Shown: one piece after another, positions 7,787 through 20,535 of the stretch
Numbering within the stretch: the stretch's first letter is position 1
Layout of the letters: each line of letters opens with the position of its first letter
Assembly: GCA_016874655.1 (NCBI GenBank)
Contig: VGTO01000012.1
Location: 1 to 34,266 of the forward strand
From: Bacillota bacterium
GTDB taxonomy: Bacteria > Bacillota > Dethiobacteria > DTU022
Length of the DNA stretch: 34,266 nt
Direction of reading: 5' to 3'
The notes under the pieces: generated by a model
What the model was told of the DNA's origin: nothing
Seen by the model: the letters and a program-made list of their open reading frames with translations, nothing else
The model's database searches: none
Program-made: the position numbers and the translations under genes

Positions 7787-8356
7787 CTACTGATGTAAGA
7801 TCTGATCGAGCCTGCCGGCATGCAGGCTTTTTTTAATCTGTCTGCTGAGCAAAGCAGTGATCAAAACTTTGGCCAGGTCAAATACAATAAAGGGTGCTAC
7901 TCCGACCAGCAGAGACTGTTTAATGCTTAATTGCATTAAAAGGCCAAGCTGTAAAGAGCCTACCAGGTAAATTAGTCCAAGTGCCGGGAGCATTGCTGCG
8001 ATTAGCTTTGGGAGAGAAGGTTGTGCCTGATCCTTGAGCAGTAAAGATAGAACCAGCACAGCAGGAATAAAGCCAAAAAGGTAGCCACCACTTGGTCCGG
8101 TTAGCATATAAAGGCCTCCCCTGGCCAGTGAGAAAACCGGCATGCCGGCCGCGCCAATCAGCAGGTAGGTCAGAATCGTGAGCAGCGCAGCCCTTTTTGG
8201 GAGCATGATCCCCGTAAGGAAAACGCCAATTACCTGGCCGGTAAAGGGTACCGGGCTAAAAGGCAGCGGGACAGCAATTTGGGCTAGGACGGCGATCAGC
8301 GCGACAAAAAATGCGCTCAGGGTCAGGTGGGCAGTGGCAGGAAGGGAATTAGTCAA
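7787..8356 (-). CDS. bioY: BioY, biotin-binding S component of an ECF transporter
   Basis: BioY is an integral membrane protein that captures biotin, alone or with the EcfAA'T energising module. The 189-residue sequence is almost entirely hydrophobic with about six membrane segments. It contains the family motifs GAAGMPVF (68-75) and GPSGGYLFGF (87-96). The start is a TTG that follows the birA stop codon directly (TAATTG), with a GAGGT site inside the end of birA, so translation is probably coupled. No ecfA or ecfT genes are nearby, so a shared ECF module elsewhere is likely. It should be repressed by biotin through BirA acting on the promoter upstream of birA. Confidence 0.95.
   Translation of the reverse strand: MTNSLPATAHLTLSAFFVALIAVLAQIAVPLPFSPVPFTGQVIGVFLTGIMLPKRAALLTILTYLLIGAAGMPVFSLARGGLYMLTGPSGGYLFGFIPAVLVLSLLLKDQAQPSLPKLIAAMLPALGLIYLVGSLQLGLLMQLSIKQSLLVGVAPFIVFDLAKVLITALLSRQIKKSLHAGRLDQILHQ
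7809..7834 (+). terminator. Intrinsic terminator for the + strand activase, embedded in the bioY coding end
   Basis: AGCCTGC (7809-7815) pairs with GCAGGCT (7822-7828) and is followed by seven T residues on the + strand. It lies 27 bases after the activase stop, inside the last codons of the convergent bioY gene, where the same bases encode the KKSLHAGRL region. Only the + strand has the U-tract, so it acts on the activase transcript. Confidence 0.8.
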
Positions 8357-9574: not shown

Positions 9575-11323
9575 ATGCCTGCAGCAAAAGAACTGATGCT
9601 TAAAGAATACGCAAGCATTGACTCTGAAATGCCCTGCTCGGCAGTAGTTGAAAAAATACTTCAGTCCGCAGGACAGGTTCTGGCTGTATTTGAGCGAAAA
9701 AAATACCTGGGTCTGATCACGACTCACTCACTAGTTACTCTGGAAAGAGGGGGCACGAGTCCGGTGTCCAAGAAAGCCGGCGAGTTGCTGCTTGATCCCT
9801 GTCCGGAAATCTCGCCTGACACCGATCTAAGTGGTGTGCTGGCTGTTTTGCAGCAGCAGCCGGTTATTGCGGTTAAATCGAAGCAGGGGAAACTCGAAGG
9901 GGTTATAACTGGCTCACTGCTGGCCCTCAAGCTGGCTGTTTCTGCACAGGAACTGGAGAAAGAGCTTGACGCCGTAATTGCTTTTTCCTCAGATGAGATT
10001 CTGATTGCCGATCGGGAGGGAAGGGTACTGCGAGCCAGCCGGCAATTTGAAGATAATTTCGGGGTAGAACTAGATGCAGTGTTGGGCAAGACCGTTGATG
10101 AGCTCGAAAAGAAAAAAGTATTTTACCCTTCTGTAACCAGGCTGGTTTTGGATAAAAAAGAGGTGCAGACAGTTATTCAGTCCCGTCGTGACGGCCGTAA
10201 GCTGCTGGCTACGGGCACTCCGGCTTTCAATGACGACGGTTCGATCTTTCGGGTTGTGGTCAATACCCGCGATATTACAAAACTGAACAACCTGAAACAG
10301 AAGCTGGAAGAGACCGAGCTGCTTAAAAATAGATACCAGCAGGAGTTGGTTGAACTGCGCCAGGGTTACCTGGGTAGCAGTGATTTGATAGCTGAGAGTC
10401 CGGCGATGGTCGATCTAGTCAGGATGGCGCAAAAAATTGCAGCCGTCGACTCAACGGTTTTACTGACCGGTGAATCGGGGGTCGGCAAGGGAATGATCGC
10501 CCGCTTTATCCACAGCTGCAGTCCCCGATCGGCTAAACCTTTTACCGTGGTTAATTGTGGGGCTATTCCGGAAAACCTGTTGGAAAGTGAGCTCTTTGGC
10601 TATGCCGGCGGGGCCTTTACCGGAGCGTTAAAGGAGGGCAAAATCGGCAAGCTTGAACTGGCCAACAAAGGAACACTTTTTCTTGACGAAATAGCCGACC
10701 TGCCGCTTAACCTGCAGGTGAAACTGTTGCATGTAATTCAGGAAGGGGTGATCAGCAGGATCGGCAGTACCAGGGAAATAATACTTAATTTGCGCTTCAT
10801 AGCTGCCACCAACAGGGATATTGCCACTCTGGTTGAGGAAGGAAAGTTTCGGGAAGATCTCTATTTTCGCCTCGATGTGATCCCGCTCCTGGTTCCTCCC
10901 TTACGGGAACGCCGGGAAGATATCAGAAAACTAACCGCAGCATTTTTAGAAAAGCTAAACCGCCGCTACCAGAAACAAAAAAGTTTTTCCGCAGAAGCGC
11001 TGACCATGTTTGAGGCATATCAATGGCCCGGTAATGTGCGGGAGCTGGAAAACCTGATCGAAAGAATGATCATTGTAGCGGAGGTTGAAGAGATCACACC
11101 ACAGAGCCTGCCCGGCTATTTGCTGGGTGAATCTAAAAAAGAAAGCTTTTTGCAAGCAGCAAAAGGCGATCTGCCTCCGCTTAAAGAGGCGCTGGAAACG
11201 CTGGAAAAAGAACTCCTGACGAAAGCAATGCAACGTTACCGGACAACCTACGAGATTGCTGTAGCGCTGCAGGTTGATCAATCAACAGTCGTCCGCAAAA
11301 TTCATAAGCACAAGCTGAGTTAA
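9575..11323 (+). CDS. Sigma-54-dependent enhancer-binding transcription activator (CBS pair-PAS-AAA+-HTH)
   Basis: Proteins of this class bind upstream DNA and use ATP to open sigma-54 promoters. In 582 residues the order is: a CBS-like pair (about 1-125), a PAS domain (about 128-240), a short coiled coil, then the AAA+ domain. The AAA+ domain has Walker A GESGVGKG (299-306), the sigma-54-contacting GAFTGA loop (346-351) and Walker B TLFLDEI (367-373). The conserved WPGNVREL is at 484-491 and a C-terminal helix-turn-helix covers about 557-582. The second half of Walker A is GVGKG rather than the usual GTGKE, but the lysine is kept. CBS domains often sense adenyl nucleotides or S-adenosylmethionine; the ligand here is unknown. 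It lies directly upstream of two palindromes and a sigma-54 promoter, so the aminotransferase-AOR unit is its likely target. Confidence 0.93.
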   Translation: MPAAKELMLKEYASIDSEMPCSAVVEKILQSAGQVLAVFERKKYLGLITTHSLVTLERGGTSPVSKKAGELLLDPCPEISPDTDLSGVLAVLQQQPVIAVKSKQGKLEGVITGSLLALKLAVSAQELEKELDAVIAFSSDEILIADREGRVLRASRQFEDNFGVELDAVLGKTVDELEKKKVFYPSVTRLVLDKKEVQTVIQSRRDGRKLLATGTPAFNDDGSIFRVVVNTRDITKLNNLKQKLEETELLKNRYQQELVELRQGYLGSSDLIAESPAMVDLVRMAQKIAAVDSTVLLTGESGVGKGMIARFIHSCSPRSAKPFTVVNCGAIPENLLESELFGYAGGAFTGALKEGKIGKLELANKGTLFLDEIADLPLNLQVKLLHVIQEGVISRIGSTREIILNLRFIAATNRDIATLVEEGKFREDLYFRLDVIPLLVPPLRERREDIRKLTAAFLEKLNRRYQKQKSFSAEALTMFEAYQWPGNVRELENLIERMIIVAEVEEITPQSLPGYLLGESKKESFLQAAKGDLPPLKEALETLEKELLTKAMQRYRTTYEIAVALQVDQSTVVRKIHKHKLS

Positions 11324-11350: not shown

Positions 11351-11387
11351 TAATGCAAGGGTGCATTAATAATGCAGCAATGCATTA
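11351..11387. promoter_or_regulatory. Two tandem identical palindromes, probable enhancer (UAS) for the sigma-54 activator
   Basis: TAATGCA-AGGG-TGCATTA (11351-11368) and TAATGCA-GCAA-TGCATTA (11370-11387) have identical 7-base arms and 4-base spacers, with centres 19 bases apart. They sit about 125-145 bases upstream of the -24/-12 promoter, a normal distance for an activator that loops DNA. The regulator gene ends 27 bases before them. Confidence 0.75.
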
Positions 11388-11501: not shown

Positions 11502-11517
11502 TGGCATCACTATTGCA
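11502..11517 (+). promoter_or_regulatory. Sigma-54 (RpoN) -24/-12 promoter
   Basis: TGGCATCACTATTGCA matches the sigma-54 consensus TGGCAC-N5-TTGCA with one difference. GG at 11503-11504 and GC at 11515-11516 are separated by exactly 10 bases. Transcription should start near 11528, about 35 bases before the aminotransferase ATG. An enhancer-binding activator is encoded immediately upstream. Confidence 0.88.
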
Positions 11518-11562: not shown

Positions 11563-12912
11563 ATGAGTAATAGTGGCGGTAAAGGTGCCCCCTACGGACC
11601 GGGGCCTAAGTCTCAGGAGCTGCTTAAAATGCGCGACGAGCACGTTGCCCGCGGCATATCCTATGTGCTGCCCGTCTTTGTAGAAACGGCCGAGGGAGCT
11701 GTGATTAAAGACGTTGACGGCAACGAGTATCTAGATTTTACAACTGGTATCGGTGTTACCAATTTTGGCCATAATCACCCGGTAGTGGTTGATGCAATCA
11801 AAAAGCAGGCTGATCAGTTCCTGCACACCTGCTTTATGGTGACGATGTATGAGCCCTATGTCAGGCTGGCTGCCGGCTTGAATAAAATGGTTCCGGGCAG
11901 CTTTGCCAAAAAAACAGCCCTCTTCAACAGTGGGGCTGAAGCGGTGGAAAATGCCGTAAAACTGGCCCGTCGCTATACCAAGAAAACAGCAATGGTCTCT
12001 CTGGAGTGTGCTTTTCACGGTCGGACCCTGATGGCCATGACCCTTACTTCAAAGGTAAAGCCCTATAAATACGGTTTCGGACCGTTTGCTCCCGACGTTT
12101 ACAAGATCCCGGCAGCCTATTGTTACCGCTGCCGTTTTGGATTGACCTATCCTTCCTGCGATTTACAGTGTGCCCGTTATCTTGAGCAGTTTTTTGCGGT
12201 TGAATGTACAGCCGATAACGTGGCGGCAGTAATCGCCGAGCCGGTTCAGGGAGAGGGTGGTTTCATCGTGCCGCCTGATGATTACTTTAAGGTGTTGCAC
12301 GAAATCTGCCGCAAGAACGATGTGCTGCTGATTATTGACGAGATCCAGTCCGGTTTTTATCGTACAGGAAAACCGCTGGCCAGCTTCCACTACGGCATTG
12401 AGCCCGACCTGATTACCATGGCTAAATCTTTGGCCGGTGGAGTGCCGATCAGCGCTTTAACCGGTAGAGCAGAGGTGATGGATGCAGCCGGTCCGGGCGA
12501 AATCGGCGGGACTTATGGCGGAAACCCCGTTGGGTGTGCTGCTGCTTTGGCCGTTCTTGAAATTGCCGAAAAGGAAAAACTAGCTGATCAGGCTGAAAAA
12601 ACTGGACGACTTACAGCAGATCGACTGGACCAGATGGCAGAGAAATACTCGATCATCGGTGAACACCGGGGCTTAGGCGCCATGCGGGCATTGGAGCTGG
12701 TTAAAGACCGTGGAACAAAGGCCCCCGATCCGGACCGGGCAAAGGCGATCATTAAGCGCTGCCACGAAAACGGCCTGATCATCATTACTGCCGGGATATT
12801 CAGCAACGTGATCCGCCTGCTGATGCCGGTCAATATTCCCACCGAACAGCTAAACAGAGGCCTGGACATTCTTGAAGAAGCTATTGCTGCAGAAGAAGGA
12901 GGCAGCCGCTAA
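11563..12912 (+). CDS. Class III PLP aminotransferase, 4-aminobutyrate/ornithine-type
   Basis: The enzyme would move an amino group from an omega- or alpha-amino acid to an oxo acid such as 2-oxoglutarate. I chose the ATG at 11563 (449 residues, GAGAAAGGGG upstream); an in-frame ATG at 11353 lies before the sigma-54 promoter and inside the palindromes, so it cannot be the start. The PLP lysine is Lys288 in TMAKSLAGG, the cofactor aspartate is Asp260 in IIDEIQSG, and phosphate-binding SGAEAVE is at 123-129. An unusual cysteine group CYRC-x8-C-x3-C (187, 190, 199, 203) may bind metal. Similar cysteines occur in archaeal and clostridial relatives. Substrate cannot be fixed from sequence; the adjacent AOR suggests the product is, or leads to, an aldehyde such as succinate semialdehyde. 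Confidence 0.9.
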   Translation: MSNSGGKGAPYGPGPKSQELLKMRDEHVARGISYVLPVFVETAEGAVIKDVDGNEYLDFTTGIGVTNFGHNHPVVVDAIKKQADQFLHTCFMVTMYEPYVRLAAGLNKMVPGSFAKKTALFNSGAEAVENAVKLARRYTKKTAMVSLECAFHGRTLMAMTLTSKVKPYKYGFGPFAPDVYKIPAAYCYRCRFGLTYPSCDLQCARYLEQFFAVECTADNVAAVIAEPVQGEGGFIVPPDDYFKVLHEICRKNDVLLIIDEIQSGFYRTGKPLASFHYGIEPDLITMAKSLAGGVPISALTGRAEVMDAAGPGEIGGTYGGNPVGCAAALAVLEIAEKEKLADQAEKTGRLTADRLDQMAEKYSIIGEHRGLGAMRALELVKDRGTKAPDPDRAKAIIKRCHENGLIIITAGIFSNVIRLLMPVNIPTEQLNRGLDILEEAIAAEEGGSR

Positions 12913-14676
12913 TTGAATTCTAATTTCGGCAAGCTTTTAATCATTGACCTTGATCAGTCCGATATCAGCGAAAGAAAGCTGGATGAGGAACTATTTCTTA
13001 ATTACCTTGGCGGCAAAGGCCTGGGCAGTTACCTGCTGCTGAAAATGCTTCCGCCCGGGGTGGATCCTCTTGCGGCTGAGAACCTGCTGATTTTTACTAC
13101 CGGCCCGGCTACTGACAGCCCCCTGGCTGCTGCTTCCCGTTTCGGAGTTTTCAGCAAATCGCCGGCTACAGGACTCTACTCTGAGTCATACAGCGGAGGG
13201 CACCTGCCACCGGTGATGAAAAGAACGGGGTACGATGCAATCGTCATTAGCGGGGCGGCAAAGAAACCCTGTTACCTGTCGATTTCGGAAGAAGCGGTTA
13301 ACTTTTATGATGCCGGCGACATCTGGGGCAAGGAGACTTATGCAGCAGAAGAAGAAATTGTCAAAGCGATCGGAGTCAAAGGTTCACAGGCACTGGTGAT
13401 CGGACCGGCTGGAGAAAGAAAACTTGCTTTCGCTTGTATCAAGAATAACCGCTGGCGCAGCGCCGGAAGAACCGGCTTAGGGGCGGTAATGGGTTCAAAA
13501 AATCTTAAAGGTATTGTTTTCAGTGGCAACGCCAAGGCTGCGCCCGCAGACGAGGAAGGGCTTAATAACTGGAGCCGCAACTTTTTTCAGCGCTTTAAAG
13601 ACTCACCGGAAGCTCGTCTTTATAAAGAAAAAGGCACGCCGGCCTTGGTGGCGGTTACCAACAATGCCGGTTGTTTTCCGACTCGTTATTGGTCATCAGG
13701 AACTCTTGAAGGTTGGGAAAAAATCAGCGCTGACTATATGCAAAATGAAATGACTGTGAAATCCCGTGGTTGCTACCGCTGTTTTTTTGCCTGCGGCAAG
13801 CTGACGACTGTTGAAAAGGGTCGGCACCGGGGTCTGACCGTTGAAGGACCTGAGTTTGAAACCATTTATGCTTTTGGTGGGCTCTGCTGTCTGCCGGAGA
13901 TGGAAGAGATCCTCTATTTGAATGATCTTTGTGATCGCTGGGGGATTGATACAATTAGTGCCGGCAACCTGGCCGCTTTTGCCATCGAGGCCGGTTTGCG
14001 GGGCAAACTTAAACAGGCGCCCCGCTACGGTGATGCCGACTCAATCGCCGAGTTTTTAGAGCGGGTGGTAGAAGGCAAAGGCGAAGGTGTAATCTTTGCA
14101 GACGGGATCAGGGAGGCGGCCAAAGCCCTGGGGATGGAAGACTTTGCGATCCACGTTAAAGGGCTTGAGCCGGCCGGTTATGATCCCCGGGTCTTAAAAG
14201 GGATGGGTCTTGCTTACGCTACTTCAGACCGCGGGGCCTGCCATTTACGGGCGACCTTTTACAAACCCGAATTAAGCGGAATGATCGACCCGGCACAAAT
14301 TAAAGGTAAGGCCAGGATGTTTATCGATTTTGAAGATCGCCTCAATATCTATGACTGCCTGATTTTCTGCCGTTTTTACCGCGACCTGATCCATTGGGAA
14401 GAGCTGATCGAACTACTGTACCTGTTGACCGGTATACGCTACAGTGCAGCTGATTTGCACAGTATCGCTGCCCGGGTTCAGAACTTAACCCGCCTGTTCA
14501 ACATTCGCGAAGGGGCAACGAGAAGCGATGATTGTTTGCCAAAACGCTTGCTGCAGGAGCCAATCAACGAGCAAAAAAACCTAATTACCAAAGAAGAACT
14601 TGATCTGTTGCTGAGTGATTACTACCTTTTGCGTGGCTGGGATCAAAATGGTATTCCGCCATTAAAGCAATGTTGA
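12913..14676 (+). CDS. Aldehyde ferredoxin oxidoreductase family protein (tungsten/molybdenum bis-pterin)
   Basis: AOR-family enzymes oxidise aldehydes to acids, or reduce acids, with ferredoxin. The 587-residue product begins at a TTG directly after the aminotransferase stop (TAATTG), with GAAGGAGG placed just upstream, so the genes are coupled. The [4Fe-4S] ligands are Cys287, Cys290, Cys294 (CYRCFFAC) and Cys486 (CLIFC). Pterin-binding segments DRWGID (341-346) and GLEPAGYDPR (417-426) and the ATSDRGACH element (436-444) are present. The N-terminal domain with YLGGKGLGSYLL and SGGHLPPVMKRTGYDAIVI is typical. The substrate aldehyde is unknown. NuoE/NuoF-like genes follow at 51 bases, so AOR may pass electrons to that complex or be part of it. 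Confidence 0.93.
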   Translation: MNSNFGKLLIIDLDQSDISERKLDEELFLNYLGGKGLGSYLLLKMLPPGVDPLAAENLLIFTTGPATDSPLAAASRFGVFSKSPATGLYSESYSGGHLPPVMKRTGYDAIVISGAAKKPCYLSISEEAVNFYDAGDIWGKETYAAEEEIVKAIGVKGSQALVIGPAGERKLAFACIKNNRWRSAGRTGLGAVMGSKNLKGIVFSGNAKAAPADEEGLNNWSRNFFQRFKDSPEARLYKEKGTPALVAVTNNAGCFPTRYWSSGTLEGWEKISADYMQNEMTVKSRGCYRCFFACGKLTTVEKGRHRGLTVEGPEFETIYAFGGLCCLPEMEEILYLNDLCDRWGIDTISAGNLAAFAIEAGLRGKLKQAPRYGDADSIAEFLERVVEGKGEGVIFADGIREAAKALGMEDFAIHVKGLEPAGYDPRVLKGMGLAYATSDRGACHLRATFYKPELSGMIDPAQIKGKARMFIDFEDRLNIYDCLIFCRFYRDLIHWEELIELLYLLTGIRYSAADLHSIAARVQNLTRLFNIREGATRSDDCLPKRLLQEPINEQKNLITKEELDLLLSDYYLLRGWDQNGIPPLKQC

Positions 14677-14727: not shown

Positions 14728-15273
14728 ATGAAACAAGCTACAGCCGCTGATTTAAGAACGTTGGCGCAAGACCACCCGGTTTTTGCCGTTAAAGAAATTG
14801 TTGACAAGCATATTGAAAGCAAGGGGGCGGCAATACCGATTCTGCAGGAGATTCAGAATGTTTTCGGCTATATTTCACCGGAACTGCTGCGAAGGGCCGG
14901 AGAATTTTCTGGTATTCCAGTCAATGAACTTTACAGTATCGTTACATTTTATGCCCAGTTCAGGATGGAACCGACTGGAGAGCATCTCATTCAGGTTTGC
15001 CATGGAACAGCCTGCCACTTGGCCGGTGCGGAACGAATTACTGAGTCAATTCAGTTCGAAACGAAAGCCGGTCCGGGAAAAACCAGCGATGACGGTATGT
15101 TTACGATGGAAAAGGTAGCCTGCCTCGGTTGCTGCAGTCTGGCACCGGTACTGACCATTGACGAGGAAACTTATGGAAAGCTTTCTCCCGAGAAAGTTCG
15201 AAAAATAATCAAGGATGTGCGGCGAAAAAACCCTGAGCACTCTGCTTCAAAGGGGGACAATGAAAGTGCATGA
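14728..15273 (+). CDS. NuoE-like [2Fe-2S] subunit (HydC/BfuA type)
   Basis: This thioredoxin-fold [2Fe-2S] protein is the 24-kDa-type electron carrier that partners NuoF-like flavoproteins in complex I, formate dehydrogenases, bifurcating hydrogenases and related complexes. The 181-residue sequence has the four ligands in CHGTAC (Cys91, Cys96) and CLGCC (Cys132, Cys136), preceded by a helical domain with ILQEIQNVFGYISPE and SIVTFYAQF. AAGGAGAAATT precedes the ATG. Its last 14 bases overlap the start of the NuoF-like gene. No membrane subunits of complex I are near, so the complex is soluble. Confidence 0.95.
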   Translation: MKQATAADLRTLAQDHPVFAVKEIVDKHIESKGAAIPILQEIQNVFGYISPELLRRAGEFSGIPVNELYSIVTFYAQFRMEPTGEHLIQVCHGTACHLAGAERITESIQFETKAGPGKTSDDGMFTMEKVACLGCCSLAPVLTIDEETYGKLSPEKVRKIIKDVRRKNPEHSASKGDNESA

Positions 15274-17062
15274 TAAACAGTATCGGGTAAAAGTTGGTCT
15301 CGCAACCTGTGGGATTGCCGGCGGAGCAGCAAAAGTTTATCAAATTTTAAAAGATCGCCTGCAAGAAAGCGGGATTGAAGTGGAACGAACCGGTTGTATC
15401 GGGATGTGCTACAATGAACCGCTGGTTGAGGTTATTGAAGCTGACGGCCAAAGTTATCTTTATGGTAATTTAGAGCCGGAGGACAGTTTGCATATTGTTG
15501 ATGAGCATATCGAAAAAGGCAAACCGGTAAGAAATTTGCTAGTTCTTGGTCGAAGTGCTGAAACCGATGATCAGACATTTTTAGAGAAACAGCGCCGTAT
15601 TTTGCTTAAAAATTGTGGTCATATCGATCCTGAAGAAATTCAAAGTTACATTGATGCCGATGGTTACAAAGGTTTAAGAAGAGCCCTGGAGCAAATGACT
15701 CCGGAATCAGTGATTGAAGAAATAAAGCAATCCGGGTTAAGAGGCAGAGGTGGCGCAGGTTTTCCAACGCATCTGAAATGGGGCCTGACCCGTCAAGCCG
15801 ATGGGGCCCAAAAGTACATTGTTTGCAATGCAGACGAAGGTGATCCGGGTGCATTTATGGATCGCAGTGTTCTAGAAGGTGATACACATAGCGTGTTGGA
15901 GGGAATGCTAATTGCCGGATACGCCATTGGTGCGTCGATCGGCTATGTATATATCAGGGCCGAATATCCACTGGCCATTCGCCGCTTAAAGATTGCAATC
16001 AAGCAGGCTGAAGGAAAAGGGTTACTTGGTAAGAACATTCTCGGTTCCAACTTTAGTTTTGAATTATTTATCCGGGAAGGCGCCGGAGCTTTTGTATGCG
16101 GTGAGGAAACAGCTCTTTTAATGTCAATTGAAGGGAAAAGAGGTATGCCTCGCTTTCGTCCGCCATTTCCGGCCCAAAAAGGTCTTTTTGGTTGTCCCAC
16201 ATCGATCAATAATGTCGAAACATTTGCCAATGTGCCCCGCATTCTGCATCTGGGGGCTTCGGCCTACAATCAGCTCGGGACCGAAGAGAGCAAAGGGACC
16301 AAGGTTTTTGCCCTGGCTGGCAAAATCAGGCGGGGTGGTCTAATTGAGATTCCGATGGGTACAACCATCAATGAAATAGTATTTGATATTGGCGGAGGGA
16401 TTTCAACTGGGAAACCATTTAAAGCAATCCAGACCGGTGGCCCTTCTGGAGGTTGTATTCCTGCTGAGCTGGGCGATACTCCTGTTGATTACGAATCGCT
16501 AAAAAAGATAGGAGCGATCATGGGCTCAGGTGGATTACTGGTAATGGATGAAGAAACCTGCATGGTTGACGTTGCCCGCTATTTCCTCTCGTTTACCAGA
16601 GAAGAATCATGTGGCAAGTGCACTTTCTGTCGGGCCGGTACGCATCAGATGCTGAAGATCTTAGAACGAATCACCCAAGGCGAGGGGCGGGAGGAAGATG
16701 TCGATTTGCTGATCGAACTGGCTGAAAAGATTAAAGCCGGCTCTCTTTGTGGTCTTGGTCAGACAGCACCAAACCCGGTTCTGACCACTATAAAATATTT
16801 TCGAAATGAATACGATGCCCATGTTAAGGAAAAGTACTGCCCGGCCAAAAAATGTAAGGCTCTAATTACCTATGAAATCGATCCGGAGGCCTGTACCGGT
16901 TGTACTCTATGCGCCAGGAACTGTCCGGTTGATGCTATATCCGGTATGAAAAAAGAAGCGCATGTTATTGATCAGTCAATCTGTATCAGTTGCGGTCTTT
17001 GCATCAACAGCTGTAAATTTGATGCTGTAACAGTGAGTTCGAAACCGAAGCAGCTTGTCTAA
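15260..17062 (+). CDS. NuoF-like NADH/FMN-binding iron-sulfur subunit (HydB/BfuB type)
   Basis: This flavoprotein would exchange electrons between NAD(H), FMN and iron-sulfur clusters. With the ATG at 15260 (AAGGGGGAC upstream) it has 600 residues; a frame-open start at 15215 lies inside the previous gene without a comparable site. Order: a thioredoxin-like N-terminus (about 10-95) with three cysteines (17, 46, 50), then the FMN/NADH core with GLRGRGGAGFPT (159-170) and CNADEGDPGAF (189-199). The SLBB region follows, then the N3-type [4Fe-4S] site (Cys451, 454, 457 and 497). Two ferredoxin clusters lie at the C-terminus (CTGCTLCARNC 545-555, CISCGLCINSC 575-585). The C-terminal ferredoxin extension is typical of HydB and bifurcating relatives rather than complex I. 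Confidence 0.94.
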   Translation: MKVHDKQYRVKVGLATCGIAGGAAKVYQILKDRLQESGIEVERTGCIGMCYNEPLVEVIEADGQSYLYGNLEPEDSLHIVDEHIEKGKPVRNLLVLGRSAETDDQTFLEKQRRILLKNCGHIDPEEIQSYIDADGYKGLRRALEQMTPESVIEEIKQSGLRGRGGAGFPTHLKWGLTRQADGAQKYIVCNADEGDPGAFMDRSVLEGDTHSVLEGMLIAGYAIGASIGYVYIRAEYPLAIRRLKIAIKQAEGKGLLGKNILGSNFSFELFIREGAGAFVCGEETALLMSIEGKRGMPRFRPPFPAQKGLFGCPTSINNVETFANVPRILHLGASAYNQLGTEESKGTKVFALAGKIRRGGLIEIPMGTTINEIVFDIGGGISTGKPFKAIQTGGPSGGCIPAELGDTPVDYESLKKIGAIMGSGGLLVMDEETCMVDVARYFLSFTREESCGKCTFCRAGTHQMLKILERITQGEGREEDVDLLIELAEKIKAGSLCGLGQTAPNPVLTTIKYFRNEYDAHVKEKYCPAKKCKALITYEIDPEACTGCTLCARNCPVDAISGMKKEAHVIDQSICISCGLCINSCKFDAVTVSSKPKQLV

Positions 17063-17109
17063 ACGCAAGCAGATCATTGCTTCCTGATTATTGACATGGA
17101 GGATTAAAT

Positions 17110-20100
17110 ATGTCCAAGGTAGAGATCACGATTAACGGAAATAAAATAATGGCTGAAAAAGGCAACAACCTGCTTGAAACAGCCTTGCAAAATGGTATTG
17201 ACATTCCTCACCTTTGTTATGATCCGCGGATCAAACCTTTTGGTTCTTGCCGTCTCTGTTTTATCGAAACAGGTGGGCCAAGAGGACCGGTTGCTGCTTG
17301 CGGAACCGTGGTGGCAGAAGGGATGGCTGTAGTAACTGATAATGAATCATTGTATAAACTGCGTAAAACTGCTCTGGAATTGTTACTTTCAGAACACTGC
17401 GGTGATTGTATTGCTCCCTGTCAAGAGGCCTGTCCTGCCCATATCGATATCCAGGGTTATATTGCCTTGCTTGACAGGAAAGAATATAAAAAGGCAGCTG
17501 AGCTGATCAAAGAAAAGATGCCTTTACCTTCAATCTGCGGTCGTGTTTGCCCGCGGTTTTGCGAAGATCAGTGCAGAAGAAATATGGTTGACGATCCGGT
17601 TAATATCTGCGACCTGAAAAGGTTTGCCGGAGATTATGACCTGGAGATGATCGATTCCTACAAAACGAAGGCAATAGCTGACAGTGGTAAAACAGTAGCG
17701 GTGGTTGGTGGTGGACCAGCTGGCTTAACTGTTGCATACTACCTTGCTTTGAAAGGTCACCGGGTGACCTTATTTGATCGTGGTCCAAAGCTTGGCGGGA
17801 TGTTGCGCTATGGTATTCCTGAATACCGCCTGCCAAAAGCGCTGCTTGACCGGGAGATTAATCTGATAGCCGGACTCTGCCGGGAGGTCCGCTTAGGTGA
17901 AGTTCTTGGGAAAGATTTTACCATTGAAGATCTAACTGATCAATATGACGCCGTCTTTCTTGGTTTGGGCTGTCAGTCAGCCCAGGGAATGGGTCTCGAA
18001 GGAGAAGATCGACCTGGTATCCTCAAAGGGATTGATTTATTACGCAGCGTGGCCGAAGGTACCCCTCCGGTCTTGGGCAAAAAAGTGGCGGTTATCGGTG
18101 GTGGTAATACGGCAATGGATGCTGCCAGGACAGCTCTTCGCCTGGGGTCAGAAGAAGTGCATTTAATCTATAGACGCAGCCGCAATGAAATGCCGGCAGC
18201 TCTTATAGAAATTGAAGAAGCGGAAGAAGAAGGAATAAAATTTGATTACCTGACCAACCCGGTTTCGGTTTTGGGCACCGACTGTGTTAAGGGCGTGGGA
18301 TGTGTGCAGATGAAGTTGGGTGAACCCGATGAAAGTGGTCGTTGTCGTCCCTTGGTAGTTGAAGGATCAGAGTTTATGCTTGAAGTAGATAATGTGATTA
18401 TGGCAATCGGACAGACGCTGGATCAGGAAAGTACCTGTGCATGCAGCATTGAGCTAAAAGGAAAAACGATGGCCGCCTGCTCTGATACCGGTCAAACTTC
18501 TATCGATAAAGTATTTGCCGCCGGTGATGCGGTTACGGGGCCTGCAACAGTTGTTGAAGCCGTTGGGGCAGCAAGGAATGTGGCATTGGCCATCAACCGA
18601 TATCTTCAGGGGCTGACGGTTGAATCTGAGTCGGAAAGCTATAATTGCTCGATGGGCCGGCTTGACCTGCTTGATCCTGAAGATTTTTCCGAATATCCGA
18701 AAGAAGTACGTTTGCCGGTGCACCATCTGGCCCCGGAAGTGCGCAAGAAAAGTTTTGTGGAATATAATCAGGGGCTGAGTGAAGAAGACGTTGTCAAAGA
18801 AACAAAACGCTGCCTTTCCTGCGGTTGTCAGAATGTTTTCGATTGCTCCCTACGCCAATTGGCTACTGACTTTAAACTCGATAACGAACGTTTGGGAACA
18901 GAAAAGAAAAGATATCCCATCAGAAATGATCATCTCTTTATTGTGCAAGATCCCAACAAGTGTGTACTTTGTGCTAATTGTGTACGTATTTGCCATGAGG
19001 TTCAGGGGGCAAACGCACTCTGCCTGGTCAATCGCGGTTATGATACGATTATAAGCCCAACTTTACAGCTGCCCCTTAATGAGACCACTTGTGAATCCTG
19101 TGGCCAATGTATATCAGTTTGTCCTACCGGAGCTCTTACCGCAAAAGGCTATTTCTTTAAACCCGGTCCCTGGTTCCCCGATCGGGTTGTTGAGAGTACC
19201 TGTACGCGTTGTGGGATCGGTTGTCGCGTCGAGCTGAGTGTAGTAGCAAACAGGGTAATAGAAATTAATTCACCTTTACGTCAGGATCTGAATGATGGCA
19301 ATTTGTGCATTAGGGGTCGATATGAGCCGCTTTTTGCACAAGATACTGATCGGATCCTGAAACCATTCATCAATTTTGACGGACAAAAAAAGCTGGAAAT
19401 TAATTGGCCTGAAGCATTAGAAAGGGCAGCTACCGGATTAGTGCGGGTCAAAAAAGAATCTGGGCCTGGTAGCATTGCCGTTATCATCACTTCATCGCTT
19501 AGCAATGAAGAGATGATTCTGACGCAGCAACTAGCTGTTGACGTTCTTGGCTCAGATCGGATCTATTCAACCGGGTTAACTCCTGCCACGGCAAGCATTA
19601 TTGGGAAACCACTGTTTTACAAAGAGATTGCAGAAAGTGATTTTATCCTTGTTGTTGATGCCGACCTGCCCGAAGATTATCCGATTGTTGCTCAAAAGAT
19701 ACGCAAGGCCTTAGCGCAAGAGGCAAAACTTGTTTTTATCGGGACTGCCGCAAATCGCTTAGTTAAAGATGCAGATGTTTCTGTTCTTTGCAATCCAGGG
19801 AAACTTAAGTCAATATTAAATACGCTGCTGTACTATCAGAGTGGTAAAGAAAAACATCTCTCACTCAGTGATTCTGAGTTAACTGAAGCTTTAGCATCTT
19901 TACCCCAGGATCTTTCTGATAATCCGTCTGTTTTGGTTCAGATAGCCGAGCTATTTCTAAAATCTAGCAAGCCCGTAGTAATTATTAATGGTGATACAAC
20001 CGACAGAGAAACATATGACCTCTTAGCGGAGCTTTACCGTCAAGCCGGAAACGATCTTAATCCCAGCATTCTTGCTCTTTACAGAGGCGGTAATACTGCA

Positions 20101-20535
20101 GGCCTGATTGAAATGGGTTTTGCCAAAGGATTGGTGGATGGAAAAGCCTTATCCCTTGGCTGCAATAGTGATCAGGTGGTGACAGAACTGTTGAAGCAGA
20201 TGAAAGGTTTGCTGCTGATCGGCGATGATCCGGCAGCACTTATTGATCTTGCAGCTCCGGATAGTTTTATTGTGGCAATGGCTGCGTATAATCAATCCAA
20301 ACTGCAAAAAGCCGATCTGGTTTTGCCGTTGGCTGGTTATTTTGAAACAACCGGAACAGTAGTTAACAGTGAAAGAAGACTTTGTGAACTGAGGCTGGCC
20401 TATGCGCCGCTTGCGGGGAAAAGCAATTCAGCTTTGCTGATTGATTTGGCGAAGGCCCTCGGTGCCAACCTGGAACCAATAACAAAAAATCAGGTTGTCG
20501 AAAGAATAAGTCAGCTGTTATCGTTAGAAGATTAA
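17110..20535 (+). CDS. Fusion of ferredoxin, GltD/NfnB-like FAD-NAD(P)H oxidoreductase and NuoG-like molybdopterin-fold domains
   Basis: This 1141-residue iron-sulfur flavoprotein is probably the large subunit of the NuoE/F complex. In order: a [2Fe-2S] domain (Cys36, 47, 50, 64) and a cysteine set at 97-108. Then a GltD-like module (about 105-505) has cysteines 143/147/151/155, FAD motif VVGGGPAG (198-205), NAD(P) motif VIGGGNTAMD (328-337) and YRRSRNEMP, which favours NADPH. Next come an extra CLSCGC site (568-573) and two [4Fe-4S] clusters (618-628, 661-671). A molybdopterin-oxidoreductase-like domain with ligands at 698, 701, 705 and 733 extends to the end. That last part is short and NuoG-like: I find no catalytic Cys or selenocysteine, so it may hold no metal. 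GGAGG precedes the ATG. There is no [FeFe]-hydrogenase H-cluster motif. Confidence 0.88.
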   Translation: MSKVEITINGNKIMAEKGNNLLETALQNGIDIPHLCYDPRIKPFGSCRLCFIETGGPRGPVAACGTVVAEGMAVVTDNESLYKLRKTALELLLSEHCGDCIAPCQEACPAHIDIQGYIALLDRKEYKKAAELIKEKMPLPSICGRVCPRFCEDQCRRNMVDDPVNICDLKRFAGDYDLEMIDSYKTKAIADSGKTVAVVGGGPAGLTVAYYLALKGHRVTLFDRGPKLGGMLRYGIPEYRLPKALLDREINLIAGLCREVRLGEVLGKDFTIEDLTDQYDAVFLGLGCQSAQGMGLEGEDRPGILKGIDLLRSVAEGTPPVLGKKVAVIGGGNTAMDAARTALRLGSEEVHLIYRRSRNEMPAALIEIEEAEEEGIKFDYLTNPVSVLGTDCVKGVGCVQMKLGEPDESGRCRPLVVEGSEFMLEVDNVIMAIGQTLDQESTCACSIELKGKTMAACSDTGQTSIDKVFAAGDAVTGPATVVEAVGAARNVALAINRYLQGLTVESESESYNCSMGRLDLLDPEDFSEYPKEVRLPVHHLAPEVRKKSFVEYNQGLSEEDVVKETKRCLSCGCQNVFDCSLRQLATDFKLDNERLGTEKKRYPIRNDHLFIVQDPNKCVLCANCVRICHEVQGANALCLVNRGYDTIISPTLQLPLNETTCESCGQCISVCPTGALTAKGYFFKPGPWFPDRVVESTCTRCGIGCRVELSVVANRVIEINSPLRQDLNDGNLCIRGRYEPLFAQDTDRILKPFINFDGQKKLEINWPEALERAATGLVRVKKESGPGSIAVIITSSLSNEEMILTQQLAVDVLGSDRIYSTGLTPATASIIGKPLFYKEIAESDFILVVDADLPEDYPIVAQKIRKALAQEAKLVFIGTAANRLVKDADVSVLCNPGKLKSILNTLLYYQSGKEKHLSLSDSELTEALASLPQDLSDNPSVLVQIAELFLKSSKPVVIINGDTTDRETYDLLAELYRQAGNDLNPSILALYRGGNTAGLIEMGFAKGLVDGKALSLGCNSDQVVTELLKQMKGLLLIGDDPAALIDLAAPDSFIVAMAAYNQSKLQKADLVLPLAGYFETTGTVVNSERRLCELRLAYAPLAGKSNSALLIDLAKALGANLEPITKNQVVERISQLLSLED

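Follow-up and report, generated by a model that had tools for sequence, protein, structure and literature searches.

The window, a stretch of 34,266 nucleotides from a Bacillota bacterium of the DTU022 lineage in Dethiobacteria (contig VGTO01000012.1 of assembly GCA_016874655.1), contains a gene for a sigma-54-dependent activator (9575-11323, plus strand) and, downstream on the same strand, a run of catabolic and electron-transfer genes. The activator has 582 residues and a CBS-PAS-AAA+-HTH_50 architecture according to the Pfam and NCBIfam matches. The matches to Sigma54_activat (222.4 bits), PAS_9 and HTH_50 (27.8 bits, cut-off 27) pass, while the match of the CBS-like N-terminus to CBS (23.7 bits) is just below the cut-off of 24. 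The GAFTGA motif is present alongside the Sigma54_activat domain, and the C-terminal HTH_50 domain ends in VDQSTVVRKIHKHKLS and has the recognition helix VDQSTVVRK. An earlier note on this DNA had called the C-terminal helix-turn-helix of the regulator unusual, which must be corrected, as it is a TyrR-type HTH_50 domain with a helix class common to many activators. RpoN is also encoded in the genome, at C80:7490-7966 (Sigma54_DBD, 213.7 bits).

Downstream of the activator gene, a pattern match identifies a putative sigma-54 promoter of the -24/-12 type at 11502-11517 on the plus strand (TGGCAT-N5-TTGCA, TGGCATCACTATTGCA). It precedes a gene for a class-III aminotransferase of the GABA-transaminase type (11563-12912, plus strand; Pfam Aminotran_3), which is the proposed first target and matches TIGR00700 (GABAtrnsam) at 553.9 bits, above the cut-off of 506.65. 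The start codon was chosen from the sequence, as the ATG at 11563 that follows the ribosome site AAAGGGGAT. The gene for an aldehyde ferredoxin oxidoreductase (AOR; 12913-14676, plus strand; Pfam AFOR_N and AFOR_C) directly abuts that for the aminotransferase and is proposed to belong to the same operon; in the relatives, an AOR-like gene also comes after the aminotransferase gene. The NuoE-, NuoF-, and GltD/NuoG-like electron-transfer genes that follow (14728-20535, plus strand; NCBIfam) are probably members of the operon as well, judging from their co-orientation. The last of these (17110-20535) encodes a 1141-residue fusion of a GltD-like and a NuoG-like protein, beside the NuoE and NuoF genes and AOR, which points to a likely NAD(P)/ferredoxin-linked aldehyde-oxidising complex.

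Two palindromes with identical arms are located between the activator gene and the promoter. The distal one, here called site 1 (11351-11368), has the sequence TAATGCA-AGGG-TGCATTA, and the proximal one, site 2 (11370-11387), has the sequence TAATGCA-GCAA-TGCATTA. Both are candidate activator sites, with no strand assigned, and both match the consensus RATGYA-N4-TRCATY at 12 of 12 positions. The arms of site 2 reach 9 bp (AATAATGCA/TGCATTATT), and a run of seven T residues follows directly. The earlier note had described the two copies with 19 bases between their centres, placed directly after the activator gene and 125-145 bases before the -24/-12 element. The copies and their spacing are exact, 27 bp separate the regulator stop codon, which ends at 11323, from site 1, and the site centres were measured at 142 and 123 bp upstream of the element. 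The genome search that it proposed recovered only these two copies, and no third perfect TAATGCA-N4-TGCATTA is present in the 2.13-Mb draft genome (152 contigs).

The relaxed consensus RATGYA-N4-TRCATY has three full matches genome-wide, namely the two sites and one match within a reading frame on contig C9, which demonstrates that box matches can arise without a promoter. A box with one mismatch is located at 7921-7938 (TAATGCTTAATTGCATTA), within the bioY reading frame on the minus strand. Since both of these matches are placed within reading frames, they were taken as chance occurrences, probably correctly so for the bioY near-box. A second cluster of boxes was absent from the genome in the search with this consensus, which suggests a single-operon regulon. 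Upstream of the window regulator itself, the best score was only 9 of 12, and this region thus provides no evidence for autoregulation.

According to the earlier note, the repeats would be the motif read by the regulator, and their conservation upstream of orthologous aminotransferase genes was one test of that idea. The regulator was searched for in 99 related genomes, and 10 loci with an orthologous regulator and aminotransferase, related at the family or order level, were examined (G000, G001, G003, G006, G009, G010, G016, G021, G022, and G070), with a site threshold of at least 10 of the 12 positions of RATGYA-N4-TRCATY. The promoter position was supplied, rather than picked automatically, for G006, G021, and G009, as well as for another locus, G061. 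Paired sites at or above the threshold precede the sigma-54 promoter of the aminotransferase gene in all 10 loci, and both sites score at least 11 of 12 in eight of them. The distance from the site centres to the promoter is 121-189 bp across the 10 loci, and the centre-to-centre spacing is 19 bp in G000 and G001, 20 bp in G010 and G022, 21 bp in G003, G006, G009, and G021, and 22 bp in G016 and G070. Since the relatives keep the pair at a similar distance, it is very probably the landing site of the regulator. The idea of the earlier note is thus supported by the conserved pair, and also by the association with the recognition helix described below, but what is conserved is the consensus RATGYA-N4-TRCATY and not the fixed TAATGCA arms.

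The sites also keep their place relative to the promoter where the gene order differs. In G022 they are located about 3.5 kb away from the regulator, and in G010 a gene intervenes between the regulator and the sites; the distances to the promoter are nevertheless 155 and 135 bp in both loci. The regulator and aminotransferase genes are divergent in G061, with the sites between them, 40 bp apart. A comparison of the window with a sister species revealed identity at 29 of 36 positions in the sites and at 110 of 187 positions in the remaining intergenic DNA (p = 0.0095), and 15 of the 16 positions of the promoter at 11502-11517 were identical. In G016 and G070 (L012 and L013, reverse strand), site 1 overlaps the final codons of the regulator gene and site 2 its stop codon, and the predicted enhancer is here written into the coding sequence of the regulator.

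To relate the box to the recognition helix, 110 activator loci were taken from the results of the regulator search in related genomes, by similarity to the regulator and without using the box for the choice, and 80 of these were kept. The 30 loci that were dropped comprise 28 without a complete activator frame by pattern, one with a run of unknown residues (L160), and one that was truncated (L184). A box with a score of at least 11 of 12, no more than about 400 bp from the start or end of the gene, was found for 17 of the 29 activators with a [DN]QS[ST]xxRK helix versus two of the 51 others (p = 5.9e-8). The box remained associated with the helix when the 10 closest loci (L005-L014) were removed (9/19 versus 2/51, p = 5.7e-5), and also when three more related loci were left out (6/16 versus 2/51, p = 0.0017), although these p-values are optimistic and overstate independence because the 29 helix-class activators are related. 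When the palindrome was permuted 150 times, a mean of 0.8 and a maximum of 5 of the 29 helix-class activators had a match, and among spacers of 0 to 10 bp only that of 4 bp was enriched, every other spacer yielding at most 4 of 29.

The correspondence has exceptions in both directions. Twelve of the 29 helix-class activators have no box scoring 11 of 12 inside the limit of about 400 bp, the sites in L008 and L010 being found further off, and two activators without the QS[ST]xxRK helix are nevertheless near a box. The genome of the window contains seven other activator matches, and the QST helix was found in none of the six with a recovered C-terminus (all but L210). In four class-level relatives with the helix GVDQSTVVRKxQRI (L024, L027, L028, and L031), TGCATC and GATGCA words directly follow the regulator gene but are arranged differently (as in TGCATCAATTGATGCA), which is perhaps a variant spacing. 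More broadly, RATGYA-N4-TRCATY may be a code word common to one-component sigma-54 activators of a large clade, characterised by a TyrR-type HTH and a (D/N)QSTxxRK helix, across Bacillota and Deltaproteobacteria, before operons for amino-acid and fatty-acid catabolism, a proposal for which we consider the chances evenly balanced. If it is true, the helix alone could predict enhancers for hundreds of uncharacterised activators.

Other explanations for the palindromes were considered. Single palindromes of the 7-4-7 form are expected by chance, at about 2.4 per shuffled window, but a pair with identical arms occurred in no shuffle. None of 200 dinucleotide shuffles of the window contained two identical-arm 7-4-7 palindromes at most 40 bp apart, and when the 239-bp intergenic region was shuffled 20,000 times, two of the resulting sequences contained at least two 7-4-7 palindromes and none an identical-arm pair. 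The conservation of the pair in 10 of 10 orthologous loci refutes the explanation that the palindromes are functionless products of chance, to which we give practically no weight. Palindromic sites are commonly used by dimeric regulators, and a repressor or another activator could bind them and modulate either the operon or the regulator gene, the more so as boxes are also located upstream of the activator gene in a few relatives (L014, L015, L018, L020, and L029). However, over many genomes the presence of the box tracks the class of recognition helix in the neighbouring activator, and this helix is missing from the other activators of the window's genome (G000) for which the C-terminus was recovered (0/6); a different regulator as the reader of the sites is highly improbable.

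It is also very improbable that the palindromes serve as RNA hairpins with no protein bound, such that transcription of the regulator gene would end at an intrinsic terminator made up of site 2 and the T7 run, which might alternate with a longer hairpin that includes both repeats. Site 2 does contain a 9-bp stem, a GCAA loop, and then seven T residues, the folding of the region beats that of shuffled sequences (z from -2.4 to -4.7 for the four stretches folded), and both stem changes in the sister species still pair as G-U, while the loop and the T tract are kept. However, a comparable T tract is missing in 8 of the 10 orthologous loci, which have 2-4 T residues in the next 10 bases, and the stem of the last site is weak in G009, G010, G021, and G070 (-2.4 to -4.7 kcal/mol), while the consensus and the spacing of 19-22 bp persist. 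Moreover, the sites in G010 and G022 accompany the promoter and not the 3' end of the regulator gene, site 1 overlaps the coding end of the regulator in G016 and G070, and site 2 was not listed in a terminator scan with a G+C rule. Termination as the sole function was rejected since most relatives have kept the boxes but no T tract, and several lack a strong stem. Because most relatives lack the combination of stem and T tract, termination is not the conserved function, but site 2 and its T7 run might, as an extra role, also terminate the regulator transcript in the genus of the window, which we suggest tentatively and consider somewhat doubtful.

A sigma-54 enhancer consists of at least one sequence-specific site about 80-200 bp upstream of the -24/-12 element, and such sites are often tandem palindromes. 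The position and conservation of the sites agree with this description, as do the presence of RpoN and of an activator with an AAA+ domain and the GAFTGA motif. With high confidence, we interpret the palindromes as the predicted upstream activating sequence, with two dimer sites, through which the adjacent CBS-PAS-AAA+-HTH activator (9575-11323) would act on the sigma-54 promoter at 11502-11517. Under this interpretation, HTH_50 dimers, one per palindrome, would occupy neighbouring positions separated by about two helical turns, and looping of the DNA would allow the AAA+ domains to assemble, hydrolyse ATP, and open the sigma-54 RNA polymerase at the aminotransferase/AOR operon. We infer that the CBS and PAS domains make activation depend on a signal within the cell, for which an omega-amino acid, its aldehyde, or the energy state would be plausible; an omega-amino acid or semialdehyde would be our guess by analogy with GabR of Bacillus thuringiensis. 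The system is best read, from its sequence, as a new instance of a familiar type of bacterial enhancer. A CBS-PAS sigma-54 activator from a little-known group of Bacillota would thereby gain a putative binding motif and, probably, a regulon of one operon, and a GABA-transaminase/AOR operon would be tied to sigma-54 control, while the pairing of helix and box can help to annotate many orphan activators.

Several known systems resemble the one proposed here. TyrR has the same type of C-terminal HTH (HTH_50) as the window regulator, and its box, TGTAAA-N6-TTTACA, has similar TGTA/TACA half-sites, which are therefore farther apart than in the window. At two loci in Bacillales (L239 and L240), which we take to be RocR-rocD of this order, an activator gene and an aminotransferase gene are likewise neighbours, and a palindrome precedes a sigma-54 promoter, but the helix is LSRQSLQYRLKK and the palindrome TGCAAAATAATTTTGC. 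The GabR protein of Bacillus thuringiensis is a PAS-AAA+-HTH sigma-54 activator encoded beside the GABA transaminase gene gabT and responds to GABA and succinic semialdehyde (PMC4279683). Its footprint covers 96 bp with 21-bp repeats, 105 bp before the start codon and just upstream of the -24/-12 element, and the expression of gabT drops sharply when the repeats are deleted (PMC4279683). Like GabR, the window activator adjoins a GABA transaminase gene with a sigma-54 promoter pattern, and may control it in a similar manner. Unlike the window activator with its CBS and PAS domains, GabR is described with a PAS domain, in passages that do not mention CBS (PMC4279683). A transfer of the box from GabR was dropped, as the published promoter matched only 3 of 397 genomes of the order of L105, none of them at gab; two of the matches were RocR-rocD-like, and one was within an unrelated coding region.

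In Clostridiales, PrdR and AorR are sigma-54 activators of proline reduction and aor, with predicted upstream activating sequences, and enhancer motifs are given for 39 activator groups of this order, 15 of which share the PrdR motif TGT-N10-12-ACA (PMC6615313). PrdR (NF041552) is the closest NCBIfam match of the window regulator, yet the score of 433.2 bits does not reach the cut-off of 795, the targets differ, and TGYA-N4-TRCA in the window does not fit the PrdR motif as given in PMC6615313. For Desulfovibrio, 33 enhancer motifs are reported (PMC4641369). No printed ATGCA-N4-TGCAT enhancer was found in a literature search that covered these sources apart from the motifs in figures and supplements of PMC6615313 and PMC4641369, and RATGYA-N4-TRCATY may already be among the motifs that PMC6615313 lists as "distinct".

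Finally, about 85,000 species genomes were scanned for correctly ordered combinations of half-box, full box, and sigma-54 promoter. Of the 24 loci obtained, 13 include an activator gene within the retrieved sequence. The 24 loci belong to Bacillota (including Priestia, Siminovitchia, Oceanobacillus, Fictibacillus, Syntrophomonas, and Desulfallas) and several Deltaproteobacteria, with one match in Comamonadaceae that is within a reading frame. The matches at L101 and L115, inside long reading frames, are probably due to chance, and L114 is very likely G006 again, as it has the same sites. The helix is QS[TA]xxRK in 10 of the 13 activators, NRST in two, and DIST in one, and a class-III aminotransferase with 28-82% identity to that of the window is present at 5 of the 24 loci. 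Three loci from MAGs of the Syntrophomonas/Gelria type (L109, L113, and L119) have tandem boxes and a sigma-54 promoter before crotonase-like genes. Their retrieved sequences lack an activator gene, and they are candidate cases of acid oxidation controlled through sigma-54 from an unlinked locus. In Priestia abyssalis (L105), tandem boxes and a sigma-54 promoter precede the activator gene, which is followed by an aminotransferase gene whose product is 52% identical to that of the window, possibly representing an autoregulated cluster of the GABA type in Bacillales.
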